Positions 11,786 to 20,680 of a DNA stretch of 64,000 nucleotides are shown piece by piece; the stretch's first letter is position 1; each line of letters begins with the position of its first letter. The stretch is from Niabella aurantiaca DSM 17617. GTDB taxonomy: Bacteria > Bacteroidota > Bacteroidia > Chitinophagales > Chitinophagaceae. The stretch is from contig NZ_KB893644.1 in NCBI RefSeq assembly GCF_000374125.1, positions 248,001 through 312,000 on the forward strand. The letters are read 5' to 3'. A program made the translations under genes and the position numbers. The notes under the pieces were generated by a model that had not been told where the DNA came from, ran no database searches, and saw only the letters and a list, made by a program, of their open reading frames with translations.

Positions 11786-14701
11786 ATGGATTTTAAGCAA
11801 TTGAAAGCGGTCTTGTCCGGAGAGCTGTTTTATGATGACAGCAGCCTGCATCAGGCACAGAAAATGATCTACGCAACGGACGCGTCGGTTTATCAGGAAC
11901 AGCCGCTGGCAGTAGCCCTGCCCAGGAACAAGGAAGACGTAAAAGCGTTGATCCGCTTTGCAAACCAAAACAACCTGTCACTGATCCCGCGTGCGGCGGG
12001 CACTTCACTGGCCGGCCAGGTGGTAGGCAACGGCATCGTGGTGGATATTTCGAAATACTTTAAGCGGATCATTGAGGTCAATGCGGAAGAAAGATGGGTG
12101 CGGCTGGAGCCGGGGATCATCCGGGATGACCTGAACGCCTTTTTAAAACCTTATGGCCTGCTGTTTGCCCCGGAAACCTCCACGGCCAGCAGGGCCATGA
12201 TCGGTGGAATGATCGGGAACAATTCCTGCGGATTGCATTCGATCGTGTGGGGCGATACACGTCAGCATTTGCTGGAGGCGACCGTTCTTTTGAGCAATGG
12301 CGAAGAGGTGGTGCTCCGGCATTGTACCGCTGCAGATAACAAAGAAAAGACGGCGGCGGATACGCTGGAAGGTCGAATTTACCGGGAGCTTTCGGCGTTG
12401 CTGGATGATCGGGCAAATGCATCGGTAATCCGGGAAAACTATCCCAAAAGATCCCTTAAGCGGCGCAATACCGGCTATGCACTGGATGTGCTGCAGGATC
12501 AGAGGGAAGCGGGGAACTATAATCTGTGCCACCTGATCGCCGGATCGGAAGGCACGCTGGCCTTTGTAACAGAAGCCCGGCTCAACCTGCTTCCATTGCC
12601 GCCGGCAAAGGACGCTCTTGTCTGCATTCATTGTGCTTCACTGGCAGAAGCGCTTCATGCCAACAACATCGTGCTCCGGCACGGCCCCATGGCCTCTGAA
12701 CTGGTGGATAAGTATATCATGGACTTTACCAAAGGACATCCGGTTTACCAACGGAACCGTTTTTTTATTGAAGGCGCGCCCGAAGCATTGCTGATGGTAG
12801 AATTTATGGAGGATGATGAGGATGCCCTGGATGAAAAGACAGCTGCGCTGATCGAAGACCTCAAAAAGAACGGCCTGGGGTATGCTTACCCGGTGGTCAA
12901 AGGCCCGCAAACAAAGTTGGTATGGGACATCCGGAAGGCCGGGCTGGGATTGATCCGCAACATGCCGGGAGATGAGCAGCCGGTTAATCTGATTGAAGAC
13001 TGTGCGGTTTCGCCGGAAGACCTGCCCGCTTATATTGAGGAACTGCAGCAGTTGCTCAGCAGTTATGGTCTTGCGGCATCCTACTATGCGCATGCCGGCG
13101 CCGGGGAGCTGCATGTTGAACCCATGATCAACCTGAAGACAGAAGCGGGAAAGGAGACCTTTCGCCGCCTGCTGGAAGATACGGTCAAGCTGGTAAAAAA
13201 ATACAATGGCTCTTTAAGCGGCGAACATGGAGACGGGAGGTTGCGGGGCGAATTTATCGCCAGCGCCATGGGTGAGGAAGTGTACCAGCTGTTACAACAG
13301 GTAAAGAATATTTTTGATCCCGGAAATATTTTTAACGCGCGCAAGATCGTCGATACTCCCAAAATGAACGAGCAGCTGCGCTATGATCCGGCAAAAAAGC
13401 AAAAGCCGGTAAACACGGTATTTGATTATACGCGGCAGGAAAATATCCTGCGGCTCACGGAAAAATGTTCCGGATCTGGCGATTGCCGGAAGTCGCACGT
13501 TACCGGCGGCACCATGTGCCCTTCCTATATGGCCACCTTACAGGAAAAAGATACCACAAGGGCCCGTGCAAATATCCTGCGCCAGTTTTTGACCGACCCG
13601 GGTAAACAGAATCCTTTTGACCATCCGGAGATCAAAGAGGTCATGGACCTTTGCCTGAGCTGTAAGGCCTGCAAATCAGAGTGTCCTTCCAGCGTGGATA
13701 TTGCCAAGCTGAAAGCGGAGTTCCTGCAGCATTACTATGACGCCAATGGAGTTCCTTTTCGTGCTAAGCTGATCGCGGGCTTTACAAAGTCGCAGCAGCT
13801 GGGCATAAAAATGCCCCTCCTGTATAATGCGGTAACGGGTAACCGGTTTATTTCCGGGATCATAAAAAAGATCGCCGGATTTGCGCCGGATCGTTCGTTG
13901 CCGGCAGTGGGGAGAACGACCCTGCGCTCCTGGTTTGAAAAGTATAGAAAAACAGCTTCGCAGCAGTACGGCCGGAATGTATATTTGTTTTGTGATGAGT
14001 TTACCAACTATAACGATGTGGAGATCGGTAAAACCACCATAAAACTGTTGAACGCCCTGGGCTATGGGGTGGAGATCCCGGAGCACCGGGAAAGCGGCCG
14101 TACATACCTTTCCAAGGGATTGGTGCGGAAGGCGCAGGAGATCATTGTATCCAATGTAAGGACACTCTCCCAAAAGGTGACGGCGGGTCAGCCGCTGATC
14201 GGCATTGAGCCCAGCGCCCTGCTTACCTTCCGGGATGAAGCGCTGGATCTTGTTCCGCCGGATCTCCGGGAGGCGGCCGGGTTGCTATCCGGCCGAAGTT
14301 TTCTGATCGAAGAGTTTCTGGCAAATGAATATGAAGCAGGATATATCGATGCCGCGCACTTTACAGATGCAAAACGGGTAGTGAAACTGCACGGTCACTG
14401 TTACCAGAAATCTTTTGGGATCATGCCTTCGGTGCAGAAAGTACTGGGCATCCCTTCAAATTACTATGTGGAACTCATTCCCTCGGGGTGCTGCGGTATG
14501 GCCGGATCTTTTGGCTATGAAAAGGAACACTATGCCGTTTCCATGAAAGTAGGAGAGCTGGTTTTGTTGCCGGCGGTCCGTTCTGCCGCTGCAGATACCA
14601 TTATTGCGGCATCGGGCACCAGCTGCCGCCACCAGATAAAAGATGGTGCAAAGCGTTACAGCCTGCACCCGGTGGAAGTATTGTGGGAGGCGCTGAAATG
14701 A
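11786..14701 (+). CDS. FAD- and [4Fe-4S]-containing D-2-hydroxyacid dehydrogenase (GlcD-GlcF-type fusion)
   Basis: A 971-residue oxidoreductase combining three parts: a PCMH-type FAD-binding domain (RAAGTSLAGQ, residues ~45-250), the FAD-oxidase C-terminal domain (AHAGAGELHVEP, SGEHGDGRLRGEF, to ~545), and an Fe-S/CCG half. The Fe-S half has CSGSGDC and CLSCKACKSECP cysteine groups and CCG-domain cysteines (HGHCYQKS, SGCCGMAGSFGYE, GTSC). Family members oxidise D-lactate, glycolate or D-2-hydroxyglutarate and pass electrons to the quinone pool. Which substrate applies here cannot be told from the sequence. The gene stands alone with ATG at 11786. Confidence 0.9.
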   Translation: MDFKQLKAVLSGELFYDDSSLHQAQKMIYATDASVYQEQPLAVALPRNKEDVKALIRFANQNNLSLIPRAAGTSLAGQVVGNGIVVDISKYFKRIIEVNAEERWVRLEPGIIRDDLNAFLKPYGLLFAPETSTASRAMIGGMIGNNSCGLHSIVWGDTRQHLLEATVLLSNGEEVVLRHCTAADNKEKTAADTLEGRIYRELSALLDDRANASVIRENYPKRSLKRRNTGYALDVLQDQREAGNYNLCHLIAGSEGTLAFVTEARLNLLPLPPAKDALVCIHCASLAEALHANNIVLRHGPMASELVDKYIMDFTKGHPVYQRNRFFIEGAPEALLMVEFMEDDEDALDEKTAALIEDLKKNGLGYAYPVVKGPQTKLVWDIRKAGLGLIRNMPGDEQPVNLIEDCAVSPEDLPAYIEELQQLLSSYGLAASYYAHAGAGELHVEPMINLKTEAGKETFRRLLEDTVKLVKKYNGSLSGEHGDGRLRGEFIASAMGEEVYQLLQQVKNIFDPGNIFNARKIVDTPKMNEQLRYDPAKKQKPVNTVFDYTRQENILRLTEKCSGSGDCRKSHVTGGTMCPSYMATLQEKDTTRARANILRQFLTDPGKQNPFDHPEIKEVMDLCLSCKACKSECPSSVDIAKLKAEFLQHYYDANGVPFRAKLIAGFTKSQQLGIKMPLLYNAVTGNRFISGIIKKIAGFAPDRSLPAVGRTTLRSWFEKYRKTASQQYGRNVYLFCDEFTNYNDVEIGKTTIKLLNALGYGVEIPEHRESGRTYLSKGLVRKAQEIIVSNVRTLSQKVTAGQPLIGIEPSALLTFRDEALDLVPPDLREAAGLLSGRSFLIEEFLANEYEAGYIDAAHFTDAKRVVKLHGHCYQKSFGIMPSVQKVLGIPSNYYVELIPSGCCGMAGSFGYEKEHYAVSMKVGELVLLPAVRSAAADTIIAASGTSCRHQIKDGAKRYSLHPVEVLWEALK

Positions 14702-14877
14702 CAGATTGTTTTAAGAGCGCAGGCCATCAATAATGCCCTGCTGTTGTCGGGTGGCAGGGCGACTCTTTGCCGTTCGTGCAGGTCTCCCCGGTCCCCATGT
14801 ACCCCGGGTTGGCCGCCTGTTATTGCTGCATCCCCCCGGCGCCACACCAACAAAGGAAAAATCCTATCTTGCTGCAG

Positions 14878-15666
14878 ATGATTACCGCTTTGGAATTTCC
14901 GGTTTACCTGCACTTTGGAACACACAGGATCCTGTTACATATGGTAACGGAGATCGCCAGCTTTTTTATTGCCTTCCGGTTCTTTTTATATTTAAAGAGG
15001 AAACAGGGCGACACCATTTCAGGGATGAACCGGTTGTACATCTTGCTCGGCGCTACCCTTGGCGCATTGCTGGGCTCCCGGCTCCTCGGCGGGCTGGAAG
15101 ATCCTATAGCGCTGCAACGGAGCGCCTCCCGGCTACACTATTTTTATCTCAACAAAACCGTTGTGGGCGGCTTCCTGGGCGGACTGGCCGGAGTGGAAGT
15201 GATCAAGAAGATCATCGGGGAACGGCAAAGCAGCGGTGACCTATATACCTATCCGATGATCTTAGGGCTGATCATTGGCCGTATCGGTTGCTTCAGCATG
15301 GGTGTGCATGAAGAGACCTATGGACTGCCTACTTCTCTTTTTACGGGGATGGACCTGGGCGACGGCTTGGAGCGGCACCCGGTAGCGCTGTATGAAATTG
15401 TTTTTCTCGGATGCCTGGCCCTTGGAATCCGGCACATCTCCCGGCGGTTTGCGCTGGGCAGCGGAGCCCTGTTTAAGTTGTTCATGATCGGGTATCTTCT
15501 GTTCCGGTTCCTGCTCGATTTTATCAAGCCCCATTATACCTGGGCGGTTGGATTGTCTTCTATTCAAATTGCTTGTTTACTGGGATTATTATATTATTTT
15601 AGATATATCATTCATCCTAAAAGATTATTGATCCATCATGCCGGTTCGCCCCTACACATACTATGA
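14878..15666 (+). CDS. Divergent Lgt-like (prolipoprotein diacylglyceryl transferase family) membrane protein
   Basis: A polytopic membrane protein of 262 residues with the Lgt-like pattern: VVGGFLGGLAG (where Lgt has a His-Gly-Gly), GRIGCFSMGVHEETYG (compare the Lgt signature GRIGNFxNxE) and RHPVALYE plus LFRFLLDF. The canonical Asn of the signature is Cys and the loop His is absent, so classical lipoprotein modification is doubtful; binding of phosphatidylglycerol or another phospholipid is still plausible. ATG 14878 gives an N-terminus ahead of the first helix; an in-frame extension to 14767 is rich in Pro and Cys and unlikely. The 3' end overlaps the radical SAM gene by 29 bp, so the two are almost certainly made together. 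Confidence 0.72.
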   Translation: MITALEFPVYLHFGTHRILLHMVTEIASFFIAFRFFLYLKRKQGDTISGMNRLYILLGATLGALLGSRLLGGLEDPIALQRSASRLHYFYLNKTVVGGFLGGLAGVEVIKKIIGERQSSGDLYTYPMILGLIIGRIGCFSMGVHEETYGLPTSLFTGMDLGDGLERHPVALYEIVFLGCLALGIRHISRRFALGSGALFKLFMIGYLLFRFLLDFIKPHYTWAVGLSSIQIACLLGLLYYFRYIIHPKRLLIHHAGSPLHIL

Positions 15667-17041
15667 TTTCACCGTCAGCCTTTGCAGCACCTGCCTGAAA
15701 AGAGTGGATGCCAAAATTGTTTTTGAAGATAGCAGGGTATACATGCTCAAGAATTGCGCGGAGCATGGATTCGAAAAAGTATTGATCGCAACAGATGTGA
15801 ACTATTACAAAAATATCCGTAATTACAATAAGCCTTCGGAAACGCCGCTGCAGTTCAACACCAAAACGCATTATGGTTGTCCTTATGATTGTGGCCTGTG
15901 TGAAGACCACGAGCAGCACAGTTGCCTGACGGTAGTAGAAATCACAGATCGTTGTAATCTTACCTGCCCGACCTGTTATGCCATGAGCAGCCCGCATTAT
16001 GGCCGGCACCGTACGGTTGAAGAAGTAGAGCGTATGCTGGACATTATTGTTGCCAATGAGGGGGAGCCGGATGTGGTACAGATCAGCGGTGGGGAGCCCA
16101 CGCTTCATCCCGGTTTTTTTGAGATCCTGGATATTGCTAAGACCAAACCGATTAAGCATTTAATGGTAAACACCAATGGCATCCGGATTGCGAAGGATAA
16201 GACATTTGCAGAAAAGCTGGCCACCTATATGCCCGATTTTGAGATCTACCTGCAGTTTGACTCGTTCAAACCGGAAGCGCTGGTTAACCTGCGGGGAAAG
16301 GACCTGCTGGAGGTGAGGATGAAAGCACTGGAGCATTTAAACGAACTCAACCTGTCTACCACCCTGGTGGTAACCCTGCAACAAGGCGTGAATGATGATG
16401 AGGTTGGCGCGATCATCGGCTATGCGCTGAAGCAGCCCTGCGTAAGGGGGGTGACCTTTCAGCCGGTTCAGGTAGCCGGCCGGACGGAAAACTTTGATCC
16501 GGCCGTGAACCGCATTACCATGACCGGGGTACGCCAGAAGATCCTGGATCAGACCAATGTTTTCAATGCGAACGACCTGATCCCCGTACCCTGCAATCCG
16601 GATGCTTTGGTGATGGGCTACGCGCTGAAGCTGAACAATCAGGTATTTCCCCTTACCCGGTATATTGACCCCGTGCAGCTTTTAGATAATACACGCAACA
16701 CCATCGTGTACGAGCAGGATGATGCATTAAAAGCGCAGATGATCGATATCTTCAGCACGGGGATCTCCGTTGATCGTGTTGAAGAGAACATGAAGCAGCT
16801 GCTGTGCTGCCTGCCACAGATACAGGCGCCGGGCCTTACGTATAACAACCTGTTCCGGATCATCATTATGCGGTTTATGGATGCGTATGACTTTGATGTG
16901 CGCGCCATCAAGAAAAGCTGTGTGCATATTGTACATAAGGATGGCCGTCTGATTCCGTTTGAGACCATGAATCTGTTTTACCGGGATGAGAAGGAAGCCT
17001 ATGTGCAGCAATTGCAGAAAAAGACTGAAACAACAATTTGA
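15638..17041 (+). CDS. Radical SAM protein of the MJ0619 / tetraether synthase (Tes)-like group
   Basis: A 467-residue radical SAM enzyme. The [4Fe-4S]-SAM motif is C106-x3-C110-x2-C113 (CNLTCPTC), with SGGEPTLHPG as the SAM-binding GGE motif. The N-terminus carries a rubredoxin/zinc-like site (C16, C19, C40, His43 of CAEHG) and a second cysteine group, C81, C85, C88, C96. The segments EIYLQFDSF, LRGKDLLEVR and GVTFQPVQVAGR are hallmarks I associate with MJ0619 (pterin methylation) and archaeal Tes (C-C bond formation between lipid chains). More cysteines near the C-terminus could hold another cluster. Overlap with the Lgt-like gene suggests a membrane-lipid substrate, but this is inference. 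Confidence 0.83.
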   Translation: MPVRPYTYYDFTVSLCSTCLKRVDAKIVFEDSRVYMLKNCAEHGFEKVLIATDVNYYKNIRNYNKPSETPLQFNTKTHYGCPYDCGLCEDHEQHSCLTVVEITDRCNLTCPTCYAMSSPHYGRHRTVEEVERMLDIIVANEGEPDVVQISGGEPTLHPGFFEILDIAKTKPIKHLMVNTNGIRIAKDKTFAEKLATYMPDFEIYLQFDSFKPEALVNLRGKDLLEVRMKALEHLNELNLSTTLVVTLQQGVNDDEVGAIIGYALKQPCVRGVTFQPVQVAGRTENFDPAVNRITMTGVRQKILDQTNVFNANDLIPVPCNPDALVMGYALKLNNQVFPLTRYIDPVQLLDNTRNTIVYEQDDALKAQMIDIFSTGISVDRVEENMKQLLCCLPQIQAPGLTYNNLFRIIIMRFMDAYDFDVRAIKKSCVHIVHKDGRLIPFETMNLFYRDEKEAYVQQLQKKTETTI

Positions 17042-17129
17042 TCCACAGAAGGGCGGAAAGCCCGTCGCGCCGGGCCGGTATATTGGCTGCGATCCGGGAA
17101 ATTAAACGGCTTCAATTAAAAAGAATGTC

Positions 17130-17318
17130 ATGGAAGAACTGGGGTTATTTTTGCTGATCGGCGGCCCGATTGTAGGGTTGATCATGATACTTGTAGGGAT
17201 CATCCGGCTTTTTGGAACGGGTGAGCGTGCTATTCGGGGACGCAAAACGGTCCTGATCGGGTTTATTGTTCTTGTTTCGTCGGCGCTCATCGGTTTTTCG
17301 ATCTGCAGCGGGCTTTAA
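17130..17318 (+). CDS. Small two-helix membrane protein A (62 aa) with SICS tail
   Basis: Unrecognised small protein. Two hydrophobic helices (about residues 5-26 and 40-58) are joined by a basic loop (GTGERAIRGRK), giving a hairpin with both ends probably outside. The last residues are LIGFSICSGL. The next gene encodes a protein of the same layout ending LIGCSICSLS, so the two look like tandem paralogues. It lies 88 bp after the radical SAM gene on the same strand. ATG at 17130. Confidence 0.68.
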   Translation: MEELGLFLLIGGPIVGLIMILVGIIRLFGTGERAIRGRKTVLIGFIVLVSSALIGFSICSGL

Positions 17319-17336
17319 ATACCGGCACCGTATATA

Positions 17337-17546
17337 ATGAACAACATGCGATGGATCAGCCAGGCAGGCCCTTCGCTCGTTATCTGCGGACTGGTTGTGG
17401 GCGTTTTATTATTGCTGACCGGAGGTCTGATTGAATTGCTGGCAAAAGGCAAATTAAAAAGAACCGGTCATAAGATCGGCTTATGGGGTGTGATTCTTAT
17501 GGCGATCTCTTTTTTGATCGGATGCTCCATTTGCTCCCTCAGCTAA
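17337..17546 (+). CDS. Small two-helix membrane protein B (69 aa) with SICS tail
   Basis: Paralogue-like companion of the preceding gene, 18 bp downstream. Two hydrophobic helices (about residues 12-35 and 48-66) flank a basic loop (AKGKLKRTGHK), and the end is LIGCSICSLS. The cysteine in the shared C-terminal SICS could be lipidated, bind metal or pair with the partner, but nothing in the sequence decides this. No known family recognised. Confidence 0.68.
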   Translation: MNNMRWISQAGPSLVICGLVVGVLLLLTGGLIELLAKGKLKRTGHKIGLWGVILMAISFLIGCSICSLS

Positions 17547-17666
17547 ACGGGCCGGCCGGAAAAAAAATACTGCTTGCAAAGCGGCGGCCCTTGGTCAGCA
17601 ACAGGAGGAGCGCTGGCCGGTTTCTCCGGATCAAGACCAGAATAAATCCTAATTTAGAATAAAATC

Positions 17667-17684
17667 CCGGTTGAAGGCAACCGG
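17667..17684 (+). promoter_or_regulatory. Leader hairpin just upstream of the first sulfatase
   Basis: CCGGTTG-AAGG-CAACCGG is a perfect 7-bp inverted repeat ending 16 bp before the sulfatase ATG at 17701. It could be an RNA hairpin limiting ribosome access or a protein site. It also shows that the in-frame TTG at 17671 lies inside the hairpin and is not a good start. Confidence 0.4.
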
Positions 17685-17700
17685 AACCGGATCAAATAGT

Positions 17701-19059
17701 ATGACAATAAAGAATTTCCTGTTATGTGCAGGGTGCAGTTTGCTTATGAGCGCGGCGTGGGGTCAATCAACGAAACAGCGCCCCAATGTGATCCTCATTT
17801 ACGCAGACGACCAGGGCTGGGCAGACCTCCATTCCTATGGATCAAAGGATCTGTATACGCCGGTCCTGGACAGCCTGGGTGCCAGTGGTGTACGGTTCAC
17901 GCAGTTCTACGCAGCCTCTCCCATCTGCTCTCCGTCAAGAGCGTCCATGCTGACCGGACGGTACCCGCAGCGGGCAGGATTGCCCGAAATGGCCTCCTCG
18001 CTGAAGGGGGTTGAAGGCATGCCGGGTACGCAATATACGCTGGGTGAACTGTTCCGCGATGCGGGTTACCAGACCGCCCATATTGGCAAATGGCATGTAG
18101 GCTATACCCCTGAAACCATGCCCAATGCACAGGGCTTTGATTATTCGTTCGGTTTTATGGGAGGCTGCATTGACAACTATTCTCATTTTTTTTACTGGAA
18201 CGGGCCAAACCGTCATGATCTGTGGCGCAACGGGAAAGAGATCCATGAGGATGGCGTTTACTTTCCGGACCTGATGGTTCGTGAAGCAGGAGCGTTTATG
18301 GAAAAGAACCGGAACAATCCCTTCTTTATCTATTTTGCCATCAACGTACCGCATTACCCCCTGCAGGGCGAAAAGAAATGGCTGGACTATTACAGGGAAA
18401 AAGGGTTGGCTTCACCCCGCGATCAATATGCAGCATTTGTTTCTACCATGGATGAAAAGATCGGGTTGCTGCTGAACCGGCTAAAGGCATTGGGGCTGGC
18501 AAACAATACCATTGTTATCTTTCAGCCGGACCAGGGGTTTTCTAAAGAAGAACGTGGTTTTGGCGGTGGCGGGTCTGCCGGCATGCTCCGCGGTTCCAAG
18601 TTCAGCCTCTTTGAAGGAGGCACCCGGGTTCCGGCGATCATTAGCTGGCCGGGGCAGATCCGGCCCAACCAGGTAAGGAACCAGCTGGCGGCTAATATAG
18701 ACTGGTTCCCTACGCTGTCGGAGTATTGTAAGATCCCCCTGCCTGACCGCCGGCTCGATGGAAAAAGCCTGGCCGGGATCATCCGGGACAACAGCACCCC
18801 TTCGCAGCACGGGGTCTTCTTCTGGAAACAGGGCGGCACAAAGGAAAACCCGCAATGGGCCGTTCGTCGCGGTAATTGGAAATTGCTGCACAATCCTGCA
18901 CAGGCAAAAAAACAGGAGCTCGATGAAGACGGGTTCTTTCTTGTCAATATTCAAACAGACCCGGCGGAGCAGACCAATCTTTCAAAACAGCACCCCGGGA
19001 TCGTAAAAGAGTTAAAGGCTCTTTATGCCCAATGGGTAGTTGAAGTGAAGCAGCAATAA
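17701..19059 (+). CDS. Secreted arylsulfatase-type sulfatase, Cys-type
   Basis: Hydrolyses a sulfate ester, probably on a polysaccharide. A signal peptide (KNFLLCAGCSLLMSAAWGQ) is followed by the sulfatase fold: metal-binding DD in YADDQGW, the formylglycine site C-S-P-S-R in PICSPSRASMLTGR, GKWHVG, and the later D/Q in PDQGF and Lys in LRGSKFSLFEGG. The modified residue is Cys, so an anaerobic- or FGE-type maturase elsewhere is needed. 452 residues from ATG 17701. The C-terminal part has the short sub-domain that ends such sulfatases. The second sulfatase follows after 13 bp, so the pair likely acts on one substrate. Confidence 0.93.
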   Translation: MTIKNFLLCAGCSLLMSAAWGQSTKQRPNVILIYADDQGWADLHSYGSKDLYTPVLDSLGASGVRFTQFYAASPICSPSRASMLTGRYPQRAGLPEMASSLKGVEGMPGTQYTLGELFRDAGYQTAHIGKWHVGYTPETMPNAQGFDYSFGFMGGCIDNYSHFFYWNGPNRHDLWRNGKEIHEDGVYFPDLMVREAGAFMEKNRNNPFFIYFAINVPHYPLQGEKKWLDYYREKGLASPRDQYAAFVSTMDEKIGLLLNRLKALGLANNTIVIFQPDQGFSKEERGFGGGGSAGMLRGSKFSLFEGGTRVPAIISWPGQIRPNQVRNQLAANIDWFPTLSEYCKIPLPDRRLDGKSLAGIIRDNSTPSQHGVFFWKQGGTKENPQWAVRRGNWKLLHNPAQAKKQELDEDGFFLVNIQTDPAEQTNLSKQHPGIVKELKALYAQWVVEVKQQ

Positions 19060-19072
19060 TAAAAAGTAAAAG

Positions 19073-20680
19073 ATGAAGCGGACAAAAATAACAGGATGGA
19101 TACTGGTAGTGTTGTTGCCATTGATCGCAACAGCCCAGCAGGGAACCGGTACAAAGCAACGCCCGAACATTGTGTACATTATGAGCGATGACCACGGCTA
19201 CCAGGCGGTAAGTGCCTACGGGTACGGCCTGAATCATACGCCCAACATCGACCGGCTGGCAAAGGAAGGAGTATTGTTTACCCGGGCAACCGTTACCAAT
19301 TCACTCTGTGCGCCCAGTCGCGCGGTACTGCTTACCGGTAAGCACAGCTTTATAAACGGAAAGATAGACAACGAGGCGCGGTTTAACTGGGACCAGGATA
19401 ATTTTGCCAAACAACTTCAAAAGCACGGCTATCAGACCGCGTTGATCGGTAAGATACATATGGACGGTTTACCTCAGGGGTTTGATTATTCTGCCGTATT
19501 GATTGACCAGGGCGAATATTATAACCCAAATTTTGTCATCAATGGGAACAAGCAGCGGCTGCAGGGCTATGTGACCGATCTTACAACAGACATGACCCTT
19601 GACTGGATCGCAAAGCGGGATACCACCAAACCCTTTTGTGTGCTTTTTCATCAGAAGGCGCCGCATCGCGAATGGCTGCCTGCCTTACGTCATATTGGTG
19701 CATATACCCGTATGCACATAAAAGAACCGCCCACGCTGTTTGATGATTATAGAGGACGCGGCACTGCAGCCCGTACAGCCGAGATGAACATCCTTAAGGA
19801 TATGAACTGGGCGGGCGACAGCAAGATACCACCGGCGATGATGGACGAGCTGGGCCTGAAGCAAACCCTCACCTGGGATAAGGCTGCTTATAACAACAAC
19901 CTGGGCCGCATGACCCCTGAGGAGCGCAAGGCCTGGGATGCAGTATATGACCCCATTATGGCAGACTTCAAAAAAAGATACCCAAAGATGTCTAAAACGG
20001 ACCTCATGCGCTGGCGCTATCAGCGGTACATGCAGGATTACCTCGGAACGGTGGCCGCAGTGGATGACGGTGTGGGACGGCTGATGGACTTTTTAAAAAC
20101 CAATGGGCTGGACAGGAATACGATCGTGATCTATACATCAGACCAGGGATTCTACATGGGTGAGCACGGCTGGTTTGATAAACGGTTTATGTACGAAGAG
20201 TCTCTGCGTACCCCGTTGCTGGTCCGGTACCCGGCGGAAATCCCCGGAGGGAAGCGTTCGGATGCGCTGGTACAGAACCTCGATTTTGCGCCTACGCTGC
20301 TGGACTATGCAGGAGTACCGGTTCCTGAGGCAATGCAGGGCCGCTCTTTCAGGAAGCTGCTGAATGGCATGGATACTTCCTGGCGGGATGCGATCTATTA
20401 TACTTACTATGAATACCCGTCCATCCATATGGTGAAACGGCATTACGGCGTTCGTACGGATCGCTATAAGCTGATCCACTTTTATTATGATGTGGACGAA
20501 TGGGAGCTCTATGATCTTAAAAAGGATCCGCATGAAATGAAAAATGTGTACGATGATCCGGCCTACGCCGGTGTGCAGAGCACGATGCACAAAAGACTGG
20601 AACAGCTGCGGAAACAATACGGGGATTCAGATGCGAATGATCAGCGGTTTTTAAAGACGGTACGGAACAAAGGAAAGTGA
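19073..20680 (+). CDS. Secreted sulfatase, second of the pair
   Basis: A 535-residue sulfatase with signal peptide (ITGWILVVLLPLIATAQ). Active-site residues: MSDDHGY (metal), SLCAPSRAVLLTGK (C-A-P-S-R formylglycine site), GKIHMD, YTSDQGFYMGEHGWFDKR. The C-terminal sub-domain (YYTYYEYPSIHMVKRHYGVR ... ELYDLKKDPHEMKNVYDD) is that of choline-sulfatase/iduronate-2-sulfatase-like enzymes. The 13-bp gap to the upstream sulfatase indicates one transcript. No glycoside hydrolase or SusC/D pair is adjacent, so the target glycan is unknown. Confidence 0.94.
   Translation: MKRTKITGWILVVLLPLIATAQQGTGTKQRPNIVYIMSDDHGYQAVSAYGYGLNHTPNIDRLAKEGVLFTRATVTNSLCAPSRAVLLTGKHSFINGKIDNEARFNWDQDNFAKQLQKHGYQTALIGKIHMDGLPQGFDYSAVLIDQGEYYNPNFVINGNKQRLQGYVTDLTTDMTLDWIAKRDTTKPFCVLFHQKAPHREWLPALRHIGAYTRMHIKEPPTLFDDYRGRGTAARTAEMNILKDMNWAGDSKIPPAMMDELGLKQTLTWDKAAYNNNLGRMTPEERKAWDAVYDPIMADFKKRYPKMSKTDLMRWRYQRYMQDYLGTVAAVDDGVGRLMDFLKTNGLDRNTIVIYTSDQGFYMGEHGWFDKRFMYEESLRTPLLVRYPAEIPGGKRSDALVQNLDFAPTLLDYAGVPVPEAMQGRSFRKLLNGMDTSWRDAIYYTYYEYPSIHMVKRHYGVRTDRYKLIHFYYDVDEWELYDLKKDPHEMKNVYDDPAYAGVQSTMHKRLEQLRKQYGDSDANDQRFLKTVRNKGK

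Follow-up and report, generated by a model that had tools for sequence, protein, structure and literature searches.

In a 64,000-nucleotide stretch of Niabella aurantiaca DSM 17617 (contig NZ_KB893644.1, positions 248,001 to 312,000; referred to here as the window, and part of a 5.93-Mb genome in 25 contigs) a gene for an Lgt-like integral membrane protein overlaps a gene for a radical S-adenosylmethionine (radical SAM) protein of the Tes/TrsS type. We find that these two genes form a conserved cassette, not a chance or genome-specific overlap, and that genes for small membrane proteins with a shared cysteine near the C terminus accompany them. The gene set, its co-occurrence across genomes, the folds of the two larger proteins, the conserved catalytic arginines and the conserved cysteine are direct observations. 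We tentatively propose, while stopping short of calling it probable, that the Lgt-like protein lipidates the C-terminal cysteine of the small proteins and that the radical SAM enzyme alters the tail of the lipid.

The Lgt-like and radical SAM genes form a conserved pair

The end of the Lgt-like open reading frame (ORF) and the start of the radical SAM ORF share 29 bp (15638-15666), so that the overlap described in the original prediction, an earlier reading of this DNA from its letters alone, is borne out by the ORF coordinates (Table 1). Niabella provides the closest named relatives of the radical SAM protein (91-92% identity). A strong orthologue (E<1e-90) is present in 18 of 117 genomes of the same family, our own included, and in 15 of the 17 relatives' loci the Lgt-like gene ends within the radical SAM gene or at most 300 bp upstream of it; the same-genus genome G022 gave no radical SAM match.

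We also inspected 80 named loci, which are the nearest 80 of at least 578 radical SAM relatives in a family-profile scan and hence not a random sample. They span records from Chitinophagaceae, Sphingobacteriaceae, Flavobacteriaceae, Weeksellaceae, Saprospiraceae and Cytophagales. An Lgt-like gene lies near the radical SAM gene in 77 of the 80, on the same strand in all 77; 59 of these pairs overlap, 9 are within 150 bp and 9 lie farther apart, up to 3.7 kb. Longest-frame starts were used, so overlaps in the relatives may be overstated. The neighbourhood survey, which had been set beforehand as a refutation test, thus found strong conservation. The overlap is not peculiar to this genome, and diverged forms of the cassette extend beyond Bacteroidota to Actinomycetota (see below). 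Three loci have no Lgt-like gene nearby (L062, at a contig end, L087 and L095); for L087 and L095, as for the loci of genomes G063 and G055, an Lgt-like gene (342-421 bits) is found elsewhere in the genome. Local synteny does not explain the adjacency: among neighbouring ORFs of at least 90 aa the Lgt-like cluster is found at 91 of 98 loci, and no other cluster at more than 22. Distances for the Lgt-like and radical SAM proteins correlate (r 0.88, 76 loci), as common descent alone would also produce.

Across 395 genomes of the phylum, a radical SAM match at E<1e-40 was obtained in 34, of which 31 score above 390 bits. An Lgt-like protein above 130 bits is present in all 31 of these (16 of 16 genera) versus 1 of the 364 others, with both bit-score cut-offs having been chosen after the scores were seen. 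We kept the three remaining, weaker radical SAM matches (G179, G208 and G408, 174-214 bits) separate; one of them, G179, scores over the Tes cut-off. The count also omits nine low-scoring Lgt matches (48-66 bits, in eight further genomes and as a second copy in G266). Most of them are probably canonical Lgt, and that of G208 adjoins the diverged radical SAM gene of the same genome. The one exception among the 364 others is G031, whose Lgt-like gene (C10:163724-164440, L179:6653-7498, 209 bits) has no radical SAM or small gene nearby and may be what is left of a lost cassette.

The radical SAM protein is a relative of Tes and TrsS

The radical SAM protein passes PF04055 and PF23545 and contains all three N-terminal metal-site motifs of Tes, for which the ligands of GDGT-MAS served as reference as given in the available text of PMC9433317. 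These are a rubredoxin-like C-C-C-H site (C16xxC19...C40xxH43G44), a C-C-C(H) cluster site (C81xxxC85xxC88, with H91 by alignment and an extra C96) and the CX3CX2C radical SAM cluster (C106NLTCPTC113, with C106, C110 and C113). The CxxC...CxxHG, four-cysteine and CNLTCPTC motifs are therefore present as originally claimed, and the suggested relation to Tes and MJ0619 was supported when the structure search was run. In a sequence search of the PDB the best match is 7tol (GDGT-MAS, E 9.9e-67), followed by SkfB. With the AlphaFold2 model as query, Foldseek returned 7tom and 7tol with TM scores of 0.73-0.74, the next matches being at 0.36-0.42; the model has a pLDDT (predicted local distance difference test) of 73.6 and several low-confidence stretches, including residues 64-94 and 107-120.

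A closer look argues against equating the protein with Tes. It scores 285.5 bits with the Tes model NF045702, for which the cut-off is 450, and its C-terminal cysteine pattern differs. Mapping the GDGT-MAS positions with an offset of 20, deduced from the first cysteines, we find that Met439 is kept as M411 and that C428 alone is retained from the CC...FC cysteines of Tes; C458, C475, the FC cysteine and Tyr459 are replaced by I410, S427, E442 and I431, respectively. The family has cysteines of its own (C319, C390 and C391), which are invariant in a 41-row set. Two of the four contacts to 5'-deoxyadenosine match those of GDGT-MAS (Arg210 as R219 and Gln268 as Q275); the other two differ, being Tyr114 and Gln278. 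The M439A and Y459F/L variants of GDGT-MAS remained active according to the portion of PMC9433317 available; Tyr459 alone is thus not decisive, and the altered cysteines are the better ground for doubting Tes chemistry.

The best family-model match is TrsS (NF045646), at 324.8 bits in a single alignment over residues 12-455. Identity with TrsS was rejected, as this score is below the cut-off of 490, which was passed in none of the 117 same-family genomes. In a tree of 52 rows the Lgt-associated proteins fall on one side of a split and the Tes, haloarchaeal and Mycolicibacterium rows on the other; the split has support 88/88 but is not starred and carries long-branch warnings, and the root is for drawing only. 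A defence system was considered and rejected: PADLOC matched nothing but viperin, at 45-49 bits over the radical SAM core, and the NCBIfam viperin model gave 42.1 of the 180 bits needed.

The Lgt-like protein keeps the catalytic arginines of Lgt

The Lgt-like protein scores 59.4 bits with PF01790 from Pfam, above the gathering cut-off of 24.9, and 28.2 bits with the NCBIfam lgt equivalog TIGR00544, below the cut-off of 118.9. It is a paralogue, since a canonical Lgt is encoded elsewhere in the same genome (G000:C21:152777-153619). Its AlphaFold2 model (pLDDT 93.5) has the Lgt fold, with E. coli Lgt (5azb) as the sole PDB match at E<0.001 (E 1.1e-7, TM 0.52). R143 and R239 of E. coli Lgt, placed in the catalytic centre by Mao et al. 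(available part of PMC4728403), correspond to R135 and R210 and are identical in 92 of 92 aligned rows. Fold and arginines together uphold the Lgt-like identity originally assigned. The equivalents of Y235, E202, G154 and P197 are also identical in all 92 rows, and in a wider set of 44 rows that takes in the deep and actinomycetotal members R135, C138, H167, P168, Y172, E173, Y206 and R210 are invariant.

Other positions vary. That of N146 is Cys in all 92 rows, as it is in the canonical Lgt of the genome, and that of E243 is Asp in 46 and Glu in 46. H103 of the HGGL motif is replaced in 91 of the 92 (Leu 64, Phe 20, Val 4, Ile 3), and the canonical Lgt of the genome, read by eye, has FYGGL where E. 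coli Lgt has HGGL. The R246 position is Lys in 90 rows and Arg in 2. The sections of PMC4728403 at hand propose the HGGL motif with H103 as part of the site that binds the lipobox peptide, and describe two phosphatidylglycerol-binding sites in Lgt. According to the same sections, variants of Y235, R239, E243 and R246 failed to complement in E. coli (Y235T being a partial exception), as did variants of H103 and R246A/E/H/K/Q, whereas E202Q complemented. The retention of the catalytic arginines without H103 and R246 suggests that the choice of acceptor, or the activity itself, may have changed, and the replacement of H103 by Leu, Phe, Val or Ile would fit a different acceptor.

Small membrane proteins share a cysteine near the C terminus

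The original prediction mentioned two small two-helix proteins on the same strand; their strand and positions are as described (Table 1), and the helix count comes from hydropathy read by eye, with some relatives looking more like three. We collected hydrophobic ORFs of 44-115 aa that start at most 700 bp downstream of the radical SAM gene, without requiring a cysteine. This gave 133 ORFs in 89 of 98 loci; of the remaining nine, three had less than 350 bp of room and six contained no such ORF. One column of the resulting alignment holds Cys in 125 of 131. The next most conserved column, leaving out the start Met, is a Gly four residues ahead of that Cys (101 of 132), and the consensus reads L-L-I-G-[FL]-[SG]-[TIV]-C-[SG], at a median of 7 residues from the end. 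Each of the 8 ORFs without a late cysteine comes from a locus where another copy carries one, and Cys59 of the first small protein is invariant also in an alignment whose relatives were themselves chosen for a late cysteine. The small proteins are otherwise very divergent (mean column identity 21%) and occur in 1-4 copies per locus. The cysteine sits at the predicted outer end of the last helix, and the charge before that helix, by simple count, is net positive in 97, zero in 31 and negative in 5 of the 133. No known family accounts for these proteins: the widest match of any Pfam or NCBIfam family takes in no more than 4 of 63 members at E 0.01.

With a model of the tail part, 92 of 110 loci give a match close to the radical SAM gene, and matches elsewhere in those loci number only two. 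Many of these loci had supplied ORFs for the model, so that the matches near the gene are partly by construction, and the information gained lies in the rarity of matches elsewhere. Of the 18 loci missed, inspection showed a small Cys-tailed ORF between the two larger genes in three (L041, L115, L186) and a diverged Cys-tailed membrane ORF in the cluster in seven (L167, L168, L169, L170, L171, L172, L174); three more are cut by contig ends (L089, L110, L184). No convincing Cys-tailed small ORF was seen in the Tes rows L175 and L176. In whole genomes, the family model matches at E<=1e-5 in 20 of 395, and 19 of the 20 hold the radical SAM protein, the exception being G128. At E<=0.01 it matches in our own genome only the two small genes of the window, both of which are rows of the model. 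Overall a Cys-tailed small membrane ORF is found in 30 of the 31 radical SAM genomes, in 19 by the family model and in 11 by inspection of the cluster. In G322 the small genes are on a different contig from its cut radical SAM gene, and G147 is the only one of the 31 in which no Cys-tailed small gene was seen.

We note some further features of the small proteins. The match in G128, which belongs to the same genus as G147, lies at C6:132654-132899 (L197:4643-5053, E 3.5e-8) in a 136-aa frame ending ATCGGLMIFE. Tails ending in His (often NFH, NMH or GGH) occur in 29 of 141 members, in Chitinophagaceae such as L052, L053, L055 and L067, so that some of the family may have a second feature, a terminal His after the Cys. 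Downstream of the radical SAM gene, L118 and L124 have multi-helix proteins of 108-111 aa with GLGxC tails (GLGVCASFV and GLGFCMSLI), and given these the acceptors may be more varied than the small family. A similar protein of 97 aa (YLQALWYDAKGNWDKAH...) was seen by eye 3' of the small gene at L035:9752-10045 and also in L036 and L044.

Diverged cassettes and plasmid relatives

Diverged cassettes reach deep branches of Bacteroidota and also occur in Actinomycetota. All three parts recur in diverged form in L170, in Nonomuraea (L191) and in Mycobacterium branderi (L192). Deep members of the phylum (G233, G476 and G266) have, in this order, a radical SAM gene, an ICMT/PEMT-type methyltransferase, a DUF4395 protein, an Lgt-like gene and a small Cys-tailed membrane protein; the methyltransferase of L167 scores 92.8 bits with the isopcys_mtase model, below its cut-off of 160. 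In Nonomuraea a 368-aa frame ending ...SILSAGICTGINPSLYG is followed by an Lgt-like frame that overlaps the radical SAM frame. The Mycobacterium branderi plasmid has a run of consecutive genes: first one annotated as 'prolipoprotein diacylglyceryl transferase family protein', then those of two small proteins with the tails ...LSGGLCTGLNPADYAG and ...ITVGVCTGLNPAMYTGA, and last that of the radical SAM protein.

Two haloarchaeal plasmids and one Mycolicibacterium plasmid encode TrsS-like proteins of 335-353 bits, below the TrsS cut-off. Immediately downstream of each lies a gene with a methyltransferase domain (L189:6436-7143, L190:6485-7108 and L187:7569-8357), and no Lgt-like match was found in the stretches read around them. 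This pairing of a TrsS-like gene with a methyltransferase gene resembles a separate two-gene system.

Gene layout

Table 1. Coordinates of the cassette in the window and of the five-gene forms in deep members of the phylum.
Feature	Location	Strand	Remarks
Lgt-like integral membrane protein, 262 aa	14878..15666	+	ATG at 14878; longer TTG frame also listed
Tes/TrsS-type radical SAM protein, 467 aa	15638..17041	+	Family models, structure matches, motifs
Small membrane protein 1, 62 aa, tail ...LIGFSICSGL	17130..17318	+	Conserved Cys59, three residues before C terminus
Small membrane protein 2, 69 aa, tail ...LIGCSICSLS	17337..17546	+	Conserved Cys66
Cys59 codon of small protein 1	17304..17306	+	Cys column of family alignment
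Cys66 codon of small protein 2	17532..17534	+	Cys column of family alignment
Five-gene cluster forms	L167:4986-8585, L168:6053-9617, L169:3435-6941		Methyltransferase and DUF4395 scanned in L167 and L169; L168 by eye

Two sulfatase-like genes, recognised by eye (17671-19059 and 19073-20680), lie downstream of the cassette on the same strand. A scan of 14000-18500 with Rfam for RNA elements gave no match at gathering score.

Proposed mechanism and alternatives

The original prediction had allowed for either a step on a membrane lipid or the attachment of a lipid to a small protein, and the conserved cysteine favours the second. Read in this way, the last helix of the small proteins would be like a lipoprotein signal peptide relocated to the C terminus, with a loop that is positive by charge count in most of them, a hydrophobic helix, [FL][SGA]xC and a short tail. 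Signal peptidase II expects Gly or Ala at position -1 of its cut. Here the residue before the Cys is mostly Thr, Ile or Val, not Gly or Ala, and the small proteins should therefore not be cut there. With a net-positive stretch before the last helix, the Cys should face the periplasm, where Lgt acts, and would then be out of reach of a cytoplasmic radical SAM enzyme. This topology is inferred from the charge count, and the identity of the acceptor, the lipid donor, the radical reaction and the product are inferred as well. In the proposed scheme, the Lgt-like protein, its active site facing the periplasm, would transfer a glycerolipid group to the conserved Cys at the outer end of the last helix, with phosphatidylglycerol or a relative as the donor. 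Acting from the cytoplasmic side, before or after the transfer, the radical SAM enzyme would change the lipid's hydrocarbon tail, whether by C-C coupling, by alkylation or by inserting sulfur; its relative GDGT-MAS acts on lipid tails, as stated in the accessible part of PMC9433317. The outcome would be a small membrane protein whose lipid anchor is unusual and perhaps tail-coupled. A bolder form of the proposal, which we regard as rather doubtful, is a new lipoprotein route of Bacteroidota and Actinomycetota in which lipid is attached to a Cys in the C-terminal region of membrane-embedded proteins, amounting to C-terminal lipidation in bacteria, and its tail then cross-linked or rebuilt by a Tes-type radical SAM enzyme, leaving the protein on a tail-coupled, possibly membrane-spanning lipid.

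Several observations weigh against lipidation of the small proteins. The pattern [LVI][ASTVI][GAS]C, which we take to be the strict lipobox, occurs in the last 35 residues of only 1 of 139 small proteins. The conserved Cys could be structural or a metal ligand. Where the two larger genes are apart (L039 and L044 versus L180 and L181), it is the radical SAM gene and not the Lgt-like gene that the small genes accompany, an arrangement that would better suit a substrate of the radical SAM enzyme. Near the radical SAM genes of L095 and L177 we saw no small gene, and the only one of L101 is 4.6 kb away. The small-protein match of G128 is outside the radical SAM and Lgt-like genome sets, and G031 has an Lgt-like gene without a radical SAM protein. 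Finally, two positions required by E. coli Lgt, H103 and R246, are altered in the Lgt-like protein, and R246K is among the non-complementing variants in the part of PMC4728403 available, yet Lys prevails at this position in the Lgt-like rows.

The relation of the radical SAM protein to Tes in sequence and fold would also suit an enzyme that couples or alkylates the tails of ordinary membrane lipids, with the Lgt-like protein handing over or exchanging a phosphatidylglycerol-derived lipid and the small proteins, their Cys structural, serving as subunits or adaptors. Bacterial Tes homologues have been proposed as makers of membrane-spanning lipids (available portions of PMC8941075 and PMC11868695), and the two phosphatidylglycerol-binding sites of Lgt (PMC4728403, in part) also speak for this reading. 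Since the Tes cut-off is missed, the Tes C-terminal cysteines are not retained, and an adaptor role is hard to square with a near-invariant Cys in proteins of 21% identity and 1-4 copies, we judge modification of free lipids to be unlikely, with some weight left to it. Iso-diabolic acid in Bacteroidota was considered as a hint to the lipid and set aside, the available part of PMC10025309 containing nothing that bears on it.

The small genes adjoin the radical SAM gene even where the Lgt-like gene is elsewhere, they vary in copy number around a single conserved residue in a variable background, and a maturase of ribosomally synthesised and post-translationally modified peptides (RiPPs), SkfB, is the next PDB match. 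All this would be expected of precursors modified by the radical SAM enzyme, with the Lgt-like protein adding a lipid or being a mere membrane partner. We consider this distinctly unlikely: no leader region is seen in the small proteins, which consist almost wholly of membrane helix, the predicted place of the Cys is the face opposite the cytoplasmic radical SAM enzyme, and the fold is nearest to GDGT-MAS by a wide margin. It is similarly improbable that the radical SAM protein is a TrsS-like enzyme acting on an unrelated substrate, for example in sulfur or methyl transfer, and that the Lgt-like protein has a function different from diacylglyceryl transfer. In favour of this, TrsS gives the highest NCBIfam score, the plasmid TrsS-like genes have a methyltransferase neighbour and no Lgt-like match in the stretches read, and in L167-L169 the radical SAM and Lgt-like genes have an ICMT/PEMT-type methyltransferase between them. 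Against it, the TrsS cut-off is missed, the catalytic arginines of Lgt are retained, and the Lgt-associated rows split from the plasmid and Tes rows (with the reservations given above for that split).

Implications and comparison with known systems

No published description of the Lgt-like/radical SAM pair was found in the open-licence literature. Each of the two enzymes belongs to a known superfamily, and the equivalog cut-offs tested (lgt, Tes and TrsS) are all missed. What is new here, on the evidence of the alignments, is the Cys that the small proteins share near the C terminus, in a motif, G-[FL]-[SG]-x-C, that is not a lipobox. GDGT-MAS homologues exist in bacteria without known biphytanyl chains, and their reactions are left open in the available text of PMC9433317. 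The cassette, carried by many bacteria of soils and seas, gives a large group of these homologues fixed partners, namely an Lgt paralogue and candidate Cys substrates, and opens the question to a direct test by mass spectrometry of proteins, for instance in Flavobacterium, Mucilaginibacter or Chitinophaga. If our proposal is right, the Lgt family would have a second type of acceptor. There is also a caution for environmental surveys, in which bacterial Tes homologues are not proof of tetraether lipids.

Compared with Tes/GDGT-MAS (MJ0619; NF045702; 7tol/7tom), the radical SAM protein has the same domain order, N-terminal metal sites, Met439 equivalent and overall fold. It differs in falling below the equivalog cut-off, in its altered C-terminal cysteines and in having C319, C390, C391 and C96 of its own. 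All 31 radical SAM genomes have an Lgt-like gene, whereas none was found in the stretches read for the Tes rows L175, which passes the cut-off with 493.8 bits, and L176, which falls just short of it with 441.9 bits. TrsS (NF045646) is the closest family model; TrsS is a (seleno)protein, whereas the radical SAM gene of the window has no in-frame UGA and scores under the cut-off. Mss, a membrane-spanning lipid synthase that couples fatty-acid tails (as described in the available part of PMC11868695), is set beside the cassette by description and not by sequence.

The Lgt-like protein resembles Lgt (5azb, PF01790, TIGR00544) in its fold of about seven long helices, in its GRxGx signature and HP..YE motif and in the equivalents of R143, R239, Y235, E202, G154 and P197. 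It departs from Lgt as an extra paralogue that misses the lgt equivalog, has H103 and R246 replaced and would act on acceptors that have no lipobox.

A parallel can also be drawn with the CaaX lipidation of eukaryotes and its methyltransferase ICMT. The transferase here is of the Lgt type and not a prenyl transferase, the acceptor is membrane-embedded, and the small proteins lack a CaaX motif. In both cases, should our proposal hold, the lipid would be placed on a Cys near the C terminus, and the clusters of L167-L169 include a methyltransferase of the ICMT/PEMT type.

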